The notes under the pieces were generated by a model. The model saw only the letters and a list, made by a program, of their open reading frames with translations, was not told where the DNA came from and did no database searches. Source: Paraburkholderia sp. Tr-20389 (GTDB taxonomy: Bacteria > Pseudomonadota > Gammaproteobacteria > Burkholderiales > Burkholderiaceae). Taken from it: a stretch of 64,000 bases of DNA. This document shows, piece by piece, positions 1 through 1,304 of the stretch. Each line of letters begins with the position of its first letter. The first letter of the stretch is position 1. The translations under genes were made by a program, and so were the position numbers. The DNA lies in NCBI RefSeq assembly GCF_017104565.1, contig NZ_JAAGPD010000038.1:56422-120421 (forward strand). Reading direction: 5' to 3'.

Positions 1-995
1 CAGCCGATGCACGCATCGGTGATGCTCTGGCCGTACGTCAGCGCGCAGCCGTCCTGGAGATCCTGGCGGCCCGCGACGAGGTGCGACTCGACCATCACGC
101 CAACGATGCGTTCGTCACCGGCCGCGATCTGGCGGCCGATGTCGGCGCACACGGGAATCTGATTTTCGTGCTTCTTCGAGCTGTTCGCGTGGCTCGCGTC
201 GATCATCAGGCGCGCGGCGAGGCCCGCCTTGCCGATGTCGCTGCACGCGGCGTTGACGCTGTCCGCGTCGTAGTTCGGGGTTTTGCCGCCGCGCAGGATG
301 ATGTGGCAATCCTCGTTGCCCGCCGTCGAGACGATGGCCGAATGGCCGCCCTTCGTCACCGACAGGAAATGGTGCGGCTGCGAGGCGGCCTTGATGGCGT
401 CGACGGCGATCTTCACATTGCCGTCCGTGCCGTTCTTGAAGCCGACGGGGCACGACAGGCCCGACGCGAGTTCGCGATGCACCTGCGATTCAGTCGTGCG
501 CGCGCCGATCGCACCCCACGAGATCAGATCGGCGATGTATTGCGGGCTGATCATGTCGAGGTACTCGGTGCCCGCGGGGAGCCCCAGCTCGTTGATCTTC
601 ATGAGCAGCTCGCGCGCAGTGCGCAGGCCGTCGTTGATCTTGAAGCTGTTGTCCATGTACGGGTCGTTGATGAGGCCTTTCCAGCCCACCGTCGTGCGCG
701 GTTTCTCGAAGTACACGCGCATCACGATTTCCAGTTCGCCCGCGAAGCGCTTGCGCTGCTCGATCAGGCGACCCGCGTATTCCAGCGCGGCCTTCGTGTC
801 GTGAATCGAGCACGGTCCGACGATGACGATCAGCCGGTCGTCCATGCCGTGCAGAATCCGATGCATCGATTGACGCGCGTTGAAGATCAGGTCCGACACC
901 TTCTCGTCGCAGGGGAATTCACGGATCAGGTGCGCGGGCGGCGTCAGTTCTTTCAGTTCGCGGATACGGACATCGTCGGTGTTGTGCGGGGGCAT
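1..995 (-). CDS. aroG: 3-deoxy-7-phosphoheptulonate (DAHP) synthase, class I AroG type, 3' end cut by window edge
   Basis: First step of the shikimate pathway: phosphoenolpyruvate plus erythrose-4-phosphate gives DAHP. The visible 331 residues start MPPHNTDDVRIRELKELTPP and carry the class I signatures: GPCSIHD near residue 60, the FEKPRTTVGWKGL segment, ISWGAIGARTTESQ, and DASHANSSKKHENQ near the end. The family is about 350 residues long, so only the last 20-30 are missing beyond position 1. The start is the ATG at 995, just after a purine-rich GAGGAAAA stretch. The gene is transcribed leftwards behind a promoter, an aromatic-rich leader peptide and an intrinsic terminator (annotated separately), which suggests attenuation by aromatic amino acids. 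Whether the enzyme is the Phe-, Tyr- or Trp-sensitive isozyme cannot be told by eye. Confidence 0.95.
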   Translation of the reverse strand, partial: MPPHNTDDVRIRELKELTPPAHLIREFPCDEKVSDLIFNARQSMHRILHGMDDRLIVIVGPCSIHDTKAALEYAGRLIEQRKRFAGELEIVMRVYFEKPRTTVGWKGLINDPYMDNSFKINDGLRTARELLMKINELGLPAGTEYLDMISPQYIADLISWGAIGARTTESQVHRELASGLSCPVGFKNGTDGNVKIAVDAIKAASQPHHFLSVTKGGHSAIVSTAGNEDCHIILRGGKTPNYDADSVNAACSDIGKAGLAARLMIDASHANSSKKHENQIPVCADIGRQIAAGDERIVGVMVESHLVAGRQDLQDGCALTYGQSITDACIG

Positions 996-1108
996 GGTTT
1001 TCTCCTCGATTCTTTGTGCGGTTCGGGCGGTTTGCTGCGATTCAACGACGGCGCCGCGGCGAACAGGTCAACAGGCTAAAAAGGTCAAAATCAAAGTTGT
1101 CAGGGGCG

Positions 1109-1141
1109 AAAAAAAACCGCCAGACTCGCTGGCGGTTTTTT
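1109..1141 (-). terminator. Intrinsic terminator / attenuator hairpin between leader peptide and aroG
   Basis: On the minus strand a perfect stem is formed by 1141-1129 and 1123-1111, with a 5-nt loop (1128-1124). The GC core is CCGCCAG/CTGGCGG, flanked by A6/T6, and the U-tract continues for 8 T residues. It lies about 115 nt upstream of the aroG start and downstream of a promoter, so it would end transcripts before aroG unless it is prevented from folding. Confidence 0.9.
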
Positions 1142-1197
1142 CGGGAATTTCAGGTGCCTATGTACGTTCACACCCCTCTCGATCCGCCAGCGGTCTG
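1121..1197 (-). promoter_or_regulatory. Antiterminator pairing for aroG attenuator
   Basis: Minus-strand bases 1197-1184 (CAGACCGCTGGCGG, inside codons 14-18 of the leader peptide) are complementary to 1135-1121 (CCGCCAGCGAGTCTG). Nine contiguous pairs, a bulged A at 1126 and five more pairs form. This uses up the complete GC part of the 5' arm of the terminator. The two folds are mutually exclusive. Ribosome stalling on the upstream aromatic codons would leave the antiterminator free to form. This is direct base-pair reading; the regulatory consequence is inferred by analogy with trp/phe attenuators. Confidence 0.75.
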
Positions 1198-1236
1198 AGA
1201 TGCCCAAAAGAAATAAAAATAAAACTTGGCGGACAT
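1168..1236 (-). CDS. Aromatic-rich leader peptide upstream of aroG (22 aa)
   Basis: Minus-strand ATG at 1236 to TGA at 1168 encodes MSAKFYFYFFW followed by ASQTAGGSRGV. Codons 5-11 are Phe-Tyr-Phe-Tyr-Phe-Phe-Trp, an improbable run of the three end products of the pathway that the next gene begins. The stop codon is 27 nt before the terminator stem. The ribosome-binding site is weak: no clear AGGAG, and the upstream bases read ATCCCTTTTTCGCC. The reading frame is also open back to an in-frame TAA at 1278, with a TTG at 1260 as an alternative start. No function as a protein is expected; translation itself would be the sensor. Confidence 0.8.
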   Translation of the reverse strand: MSAKFYFYFFWASQTAGGSRGV

Positions 1237-1274
1237 GGCGAAAAAGGGATGGCTCGTCAAAAAGGTTGATTGGC

Positions 1275-1304
1275 TTTATAACCCGAGGTTTGCTCGGCTG
1301 GCAA
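1275..1304 (-). promoter_or_regulatory. Candidate sigma-70 promoter for aroG leader
   Basis: The minus strand reads TTGCCA (1304-1299; 5 of 6 consensus bases for -35), then an 18-bp spacer, then TATAAA (1280-1275; 5 of 6 for -10); reading the -10 as TTATAA gives 17 bp. The predicted transcript would start near 1268, about 30 nt before the leader-peptide ATG. Confidence 0.65.

Follow-up and report, generated by a model that had tools for sequence, protein, structure and literature searches.

In the classical attenuator of the E. coli trp operon, the leader trpL carries Trp codons and follows a four-strand logic of 1:2, 2:3, and 3:4 pairing. Leader-peptide attenuation is established for trp, pheA, and pheST, as set out in the accessible part of PMC11802643. 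In the aroR-aroF attenuator of C. glutamicum (Neshat et al. 2014, as summarized in portions of PMC4046766, PMC7356990, and PMC11802643), a leader with Phe-Tyr-Phe lies before a DAHP synthase gene; Phe limitation is reported to raise expression, and Tyr availability is reported to be without effect (same portion of PMC11802643). Attenuators are also predicted in Merino's database before the Vibrio DAHP synthase-tyrA operon, as listed in the available section of PMC1173090. According to the accessible text of PMC3766115, only the Rfam leaders for His, Leu, Thr, and Trp could be used in that work.

We analyzed a window of 64,000 nucleotides from Paraburkholderia sp. Tr-20389 (contig NZ_JAAGPD010000038.1, positions 56,422 to 120,421; genome of 129 contigs and 9.0 Mb), in which an ORF rich in aromatic codons precedes aroG. 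The anatomy, the conservation, the alternative structures, and the masking effect described below were computed here. The aroG leader is very probably a ribosome-mediated transcription attenuator, which would tie aroG expression to the charging of tRNA-Phe and tRNA-Tyr and, in some lineages, of tRNA-Trp as well.

Anatomy of the aroG leader region

Read directly from 1304 to 1109 on the minus strand, the locus consists of a promoter-like pair, a 22-codon ORF, and a terminator, followed by aroG (Table 1). These are the four parts, in the same order, that an earlier sequence-only reading had described, with the terminator placed here at 1140-1109; the run of Phe, Tyr, or Trp at codons 5-11 that it reported is also present (1224-1204). 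Both a short leader ORF with a run of end-product codons and an intrinsic terminator between that ORF and the structural gene are characteristic of the attenuator class. The identity of aroG is given by NCBIfam NF006723 (576.5 bits versus a cut-off of 568), and tldD lies just upstream of the leader and aroG in the same direction (NCBIfam TldD, 678 bits versus a cut-off of 513).

The promoter scan of the window, which demands T as the last -10 base, did not report the TTGCCA/TATAAA pair, and thus the promoter assignment was made by reading alone. Of 135 leaders, 111 have a TATAA-like box no more than 60 nt ahead of their ATG; in 68 of the 111 it sits at -42 to -45. The terminator scan left 1140-1109 unreported, its sole output in the window being one weak site on the plus strand. 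The terminator folds at -19.5 kcal/mol versus a shuffled mean of -7.6 (z -4.5), and the whole leader (1109-1270) folds with a z of -3.1 (2 of 200 shuffles equally low).

The suspicion that the leader has a poor ribosome-binding site proved real and general. The median Shine-Dalgarno duplex energy of the leaders is 0.1 kcal/mol, with -6 kcal/mol or better in 1 of 135 and -8.9 kcal/mol for aroG. A leader without a Shine-Dalgarno sequence is not disqualifying, given that the C. glutamicum ilvBNC leader peptide is reported to be synthesized without a ribosome-binding site (a title cited in the consulted part of PMC4046766).

The terminator could belong to tldD, with the aromatic ORF present by chance. 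The chance component of this alternative is countered by the longest aromatic run within a short ORF, which reached seven residues in 0, six in 3, and five in 9 of 5,000 dinucleotide shuffles of the 384-nt intergenic region.

Table 1. Features of the aroG leader locus (window coordinates)
Feature	Position	Strand	Description
Promoter-like pair	1275..1304	-	-35 TTGCCA 1304-1299, 18-nt spacer, -10 TATAAA 1280-1275; by reading
Putative transcription start	~1268	-	inferred
Strand 1, protector	1227..1251	-	pairs with strand 2 region in untranslated RNA; includes leader start codon; from MFE folds
Leader peptide ORF	1168..1236	-	MSAKFYFYFFWASQTAGGSRGV; 22 codons, ATG 1236 to TGA 1168, stop included
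Sensor codons 5-11	1204..1224	-	Phe-Tyr-Phe-Tyr-Phe-Phe-Trp
Strand 2, antiterminator strand	1184..1197	-	within leader codons 14-18
Strand 3	1121..1135	-	terminator 5' arm and loop; common to antiterminator and terminator
Intrinsic terminator (strands 3:4)	1109..1140	-	5' arm 1140-1129, loop 1128-1124, 3' arm 1123-1117, eight T 1116-1109
Shine-Dalgarno of aroG	1002..1007	-	GAGGAG; anti-SD duplex -8.9 kcal/mol
aroG, DAHP synthase	3..995	-	331 codons visible; continues past window edge

Conservation of the aromatic codons

We searched 60 genomes, our own among them, of which 36 belong to the same genus, and inspected the region before the best AroG match. An aromatic leader ORF with a terminator was found there in 36/36 same-genus genomes, with FYFYFFW in 33 of these 36 leaders. 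Across the family, a degenerate Phe-Tyr-Phe-Tyr-Phe-Phe pattern was found in 91 of 150 genomes, with reversed-pattern controls suggesting that some of the 91 matches, in small AT-rich genomes, arose by chance. We further chose 30 family genomes, mostly those without the FYFYFF pattern or with a chance match only; 29 had an AroG match, and the aromatic leader with terminator was found in 25 of the 29 and not in the other 4. The residues differ yet stay aromatic in other genera (FYFWFYAF, FFYFYFW, FWFYFYSY, HFWFFYW, YFFWYF, and FYFWHF). Leader and terminator were found together in 135 of 150 loci (L002-L151), which is not a frequency because 70 of these 150 loci were pattern-selected.

The coding constraints were evaluated from 120 distinct leaders (L012 left out), of which 90 were aligned. 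Our codon table covers the 72 aligned leaders that fit a regular expression; the other 18, including the window's clade, do not. Since the regular expression itself demands FYFYFF and L, P, A, and E, only third bases and free positions are informative. The third bases of the Phe and Tyr codons vary in the 72 leaders (TAC 38 and TAT 34 at codon 6; TTT 38 and TTC 34 at codon 9). Past the aromatic run, CTC, CCG, GCG, and GAG are identical codons in 72/72, silent sites included, and a neighboring codon with no pairing to maintain encodes R, L, K, T, A, or S. In the window's clade (five loci, L002-L006), a +1 indel after the Trp codon TGG shifts the distal leader frame, so that ASQTAGGSRGV replaces YLRPLADREGC (window 1168-1236 and L003-L006) with the strand 2 RNA intact. 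Given that third bases vary early in the leader, that silent sites are fixed later, and that the +1 shift spares strand 2, the first half of the leader acts as codons and the second half as RNA.

The Trp codon is kept in 55 of the 72 rows and replaced by Gly, Ser, or Ala in 17, and Trp is entirely absent from 24 of the 135 leaders. Trp is therefore dispensable, leaving Phe and Tyr as the core signal sensed. The proposal of one sensor for all three end products accordingly stands for Phe and Tyr and does not extend to Trp in every lineage.

Two further features of the codons were observed. At three positions the Phe codons are nearly all TTT (69, 71, and 63 of 72 rows), a notable bias if these GC-rich genomes commonly use TTC. 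In locus L012 (genome G022), the Trp that follows the run is replaced through a frame change, which also lets the leader ORF, MSAKFYFYFFGISDRWRIERGVSARKTPRIPEKPPA, extend into the terminator 5' arm, providing a natural altered case.

These patterns bear on three other readings of the leader. The retention of FYFYFFW within the genus would suit a functional small protein that is not a sensor. However, both the window's clade and L012 have a frame-shifted distal half, residues swap between lineages while staying aromatic, and beyond the run even silent sites do not vary; we consider a small protein highly improbable. A structured leader before a biosynthetic gene could also be a ligand-binding riboswitch or a T-box for aromatic amino acids. 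What is conserved, though, is a coding frame whose third bases are free, and neither the window nor five other loci gave an Rfam match at the gathering score of any family, which leaves this reading a negligible probability. The Rfam Phe_leader model (RF01859) scored 20.2 bits against the window (E 0.69), below its gathering score of 55, and permissive thresholds yielded only this weak match and short terminator-like matches.

A third reading invokes TnaC-like arrest, in which a free aromatic amino acid or the nascent peptide stalls the ribosome, with another signal or the opposite sign. We reasoned that the anatomy suits any stall in this stretch and that codon content alone cannot separate tRNA shortage from arrest. 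Arrest peptides have fixed residues, whereas residue order and spacing vary widely between lineages here. Also pointing away from arrest is the reported rise of C. glutamicum aroR under Phe limitation (accessible part of PMC11802643), and we regard arrest as very unlikely.

Alternative structures and the proposed switch

The antiterminator proposed from the sequence alone, in which leader codons 14-18 pair with the 5' arm and loop of the terminator, was recovered as 9+5 bp between 1197-1184 and 1135-1121, with A1126 bulged. The antiterminator region (1121-1200) folds at -35.2 kcal/mol (z -5.1), and 0 of 200 shuffles were equally low. When the terminator 3' arm was omitted, the GGCGG:CCGCC pairing was present in the MFE of 90/90 rows. 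This five-pair core is invariant over the 90 rows save one G-U, and the outer pairs fail in up to 41 of the 90, for which loop alignment is perhaps partly responsible. The proximal 7 bp between strands 1 and 2 are kept in 90.6% of cells (90 rows), without paired changes.

The terminator pairing is kept in 99.7% of cells over the 90 rows, and 14 cells are altered on both sides; 0 of 500 shuffles scored as high on either measure. Two other statistics were weaker, with the count of pairs showing two-sided change reached by 70 of 500 shuffles and the number of pair types by 396. For the antiterminator, with its near-invariant core, 168 of 500 shuffles matched the covariation score over the 90 family rows, and RNAalifold on this region returned a 6-bp helix only, with no covariation gain. 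Within the family, covariation neither supports nor refutes the antiterminator. The alignment across Burkholderiaceae suggested in the sequence-only reading bears out its expectation: the family and other lineages retain the aromatic codons, the terminator, and the core of the antiterminator. Compensatory changes are clear for the terminator only.

We also compared strand 2 with its own strand 3 by permutation across 27 leaders, which gave 8 of 10,000, with 18 of the 27 fitting better than expected. With one leader per family (nine families), the result was weaker, at 438 and 590 of 10,000 for two choices. Poor single ranks among the 27 were those of L041 (27th), L046 (26th), and L101 (25th). 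Strands 2, 3, and 4 are altered together in L143, L145, and L147; in eight other relatives strand 3 is altered and strand 2 retains a U-G pair.

A UCUC...GAGA hairpin surrounds strand 2 in the window (1177-1200) and its relatives, paired in 99.0% of cells without paired changes (90 rows). It may be a pause hairpin or an SD-like stretch.

We infer that the leader is translated, that ribosomes stall within it, that polymerase and ribosome are coupled, and that read-through into aroG changes as a result. When charged tRNAs are plentiful, the ribosome would pass the aromatic codons and reach the stop codon, where it would cover strand 2; strand 3 would then pair with strand 4, and transcription would end before aroG. 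If one charged tRNA were scarce, the ribosome would halt at codons 5-11, covering strand 1 and leaving strand 2 free. Strand 2 would then capture strand 3 ahead of the synthesis of strand 4, and polymerase would continue into aroG. In the absence of translation, strand 1 would compete for strand 2, which should favor termination.

We examined these states with a masking model, in which the ribosome is a mask and the polymerase sits just short of the terminator 3' arm (134 leaders, L012 left out). The antiterminator formed in 133/134 leaders with the ribosome stalled in the aromatic run and in 0/134 with the ribosome at the stop codon. The sequence-only reading had worried that a ribosome at the stop codon would occlude the antiterminator incompletely, a concern answered in part by the pairing of strand 1 (1251-1227) with strand 2 in the untranslated window RNA and by the lack of an antiterminator in 134/134 leaders in this model. 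Without a ribosome, 87/134 leaders still formed the antiterminator before the 3' arm, and the default, untranslated state is therefore uncertain.

With the full terminator included, equilibrium folding gave the antiterminator in 28 of the 134 leaders for a mid-run stall and in 31 for a stall at the last aromatic codon, the window being among both, and the terminator in 133/134 for the free and for the stop-codon states. A further mark of the attenuator class is an antiterminator that excludes the terminator and whose 5' strand becomes available on stalling and is covered at the stop codon; this was found in folding before the 3' arm, and equilibrium agrees in only 28-31 of the 134 stalled cases. 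Given these low equilibrium counts for stalled leaders, the switch would depend on which helix is formed first. The order of helix formation decides the outcome in classical attenuators.

Distribution, origin, and relation to known systems

We built a covariance model from the 90 leaders. In our own genome it found one strong copy (130.1 bits), and the next best match (26.9) was the same terminator on the opposite strand. Among 276 genomes of the class, 28 had a match at E 0.01 or better, comprising our own, six with strong full-length matches, and 21 with weak matches only. All six strong matches (E 3e-7 or better), two in another family of the same order and four outside the order, adjoin a DAHP synthase (tblastn, 65-72% identity) behind an aromatic leader. 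No other locus among L280-L308 had a DAHP synthase neighbor by tblastn. The nine weak loci inspected, seven from the class and two from our own genome, have no aromatic leader (at most 4 of 10 residues aromatic), and an aromatic leader lay upstream of 0 of 6 paralogous DAHP synthases from our own genome and five relatives.

Within the order, we inspected 54 AroG upstream regions from 26 other families, a part of those listed. An ORF with at least 6 aromatic residues in ten was present in 16 of the 54, versus 5 of 1,080 shuffles and 3 of 54 on the opposite strand. With two weaker cases recognized by eye (L156 and L188), the leader occurs in 8 of the 26 families; it was not found in 36 of the 54 upstream regions.

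Our named loci, the best 80 of at least 589 stretches, include 42 in which the leader is clear and a T tract is present (43 were flagged, one of them judged chance). The genera represented include Paraburkholderia, Caballeronia, Burkholderia, Cupriavidus, Massilia, Janthinobacterium, Xanthomonas, Dyella, Bradyrhizobium, and Devosia. The last four of these also show the terminator and the strand 2:3 pairing. No leader was found, among the same best 80 of at least 589, in eight Rhodocyclales loci, Neisseria, Chromobacterium, or 7 of 8 enteric loci, the eighth (L262) being ambiguous. Four loci with 5 of 10 aromatic residues (L215, L218, L231, and L262) were judged by eye to be chance or ambiguous. 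In L243, from a record titled Anaerolineae MAG, an aromatic ORF, MSRYFSFFSWYGYFAAG..., lies before aroG, and the long hairpin after it lacks a T tract.

This sampling also bears on whether the terminator belongs to tldD. In 22 of the 80 named loci (the best of at least 589 stretches), including all of L192-L202, the gene was found no more than 1 kb upstream, an association that such an origin would account for. Leader and tldD nevertheless come apart in both directions across loci. No tldD was found within 1 kb upstream of the leader-bearing aroG in the Xanthomonas, Dyella, Bradyrhizobium, Devosia, and Cupriavidus loci, and in Rhodocyclus, Dechloromonas, Accumulibacter, and a Ferrovum locus tldD is present and the leader absent. 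The leader tracks aroG, not tldD, and a tldD terminator beside a chance ORF is hardly credible as an explanation.

We placed the leader on a quick AroG tree of 67 rows, with 15 of the 80 named loci left out, nearly all of them near-copies or genus repeats. Five rows were set unclear, and L242 (4 of 10 aromatic, terminator seen) and L243 were labeled leader-bearing. The leader occurs in 30 of 34 rows of one starred clade (SH-aLRT 96), and three leader rows lie outside it; the leader label requires 7 changes on the tree, compared with 22.6 on average after shuffling. The tree fits a single origin followed by losses and gene transfer but does not prove it, since at least four changes are forced even when starred branches alone are considered. 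The aroG genes of Bradyrhizobium (L250, L251, L255, and L257) and Devosia (L236, L242, and L253) carry the aromatic leader and group with Xanthomonadales AroG (L255 is outside the tree), suggesting that aroG and the attenuator were transferred together. We give about an even chance to a broader scenario, in which a single ancient attenuator family was born once with one AroG clade and moved with the gene among Burkholderiales, Xanthomonadales, and some Alphaproteobacteria (Bradyrhizobium and Devosia). In this scenario the family would respond to aromatics collectively (any of Phe, Tyr, and, in some lineages, Trp) at the shikimate entry, through a leader ORF whose start has no Shine-Dalgarno sequence.

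If it operates as proposed, a conserved Phe/Tyr sensor on the opening step of the aromatic pathway would, in Burkholderiales, Xanthomonadales, and some Alphaproteobacteria, broaden the attenuator picture and suggest how these bacteria set aroG. Many related soil and plant bacteria share the arrangement, and aroG is the first gene for Phe, Tyr, and Trp synthesis. The attenuator would give a ready site to release flux in producer strains, and its leader would offer a natural SD-less case that needs timely translation.

Our searches of open papers found no report of an attenuator on a beta-proteobacterial DAHP synthase or on aroG of Burkholderiales, Xanthomonadales, or Alphaproteobacteria; an earlier prediction may exist in subscription papers, Merino's attenuator site, or supplements. 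The available parts of PMC2965389 and PMC5343134 do not mention such an attenuator. The small RNA ncS35 of B. cenocepacia is located elsewhere and is unrelated, going by the consulted portion of PMC5760752.

The mechanism class is known, and we place the aroG leader in it with high confidence, as a new family within that class. It resembles E. coli trpL in its four-strand logic and differs in placing the antiterminator strand inside the ORF and in having no Shine-Dalgarno sequence on the leader. Attenuation by a Phe-sensing leader peptide is shared with enterobacterial pheA (pheL) and pheST, which are other genes (accessible part of PMC11802643). The Vibrio DAHP synthase-tyrA prediction is similar in placing an attenuator-like structure before a proteobacterial DAHP synthase, but it concerns another operon and lineage, is listed for its tyrA link, and has no leader peptide described in the available section of PMC1173090. 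By analogy, the nearest precedent would be aroR-aroF of C. glutamicum, which likewise has a short aromatic leader peptide before a DAHP synthase. Likened here by its published description, that system belongs to an actinobacterium and carries Phe-Tyr-Phe, whereas the leader in the window has seven consecutive aromatic codons.
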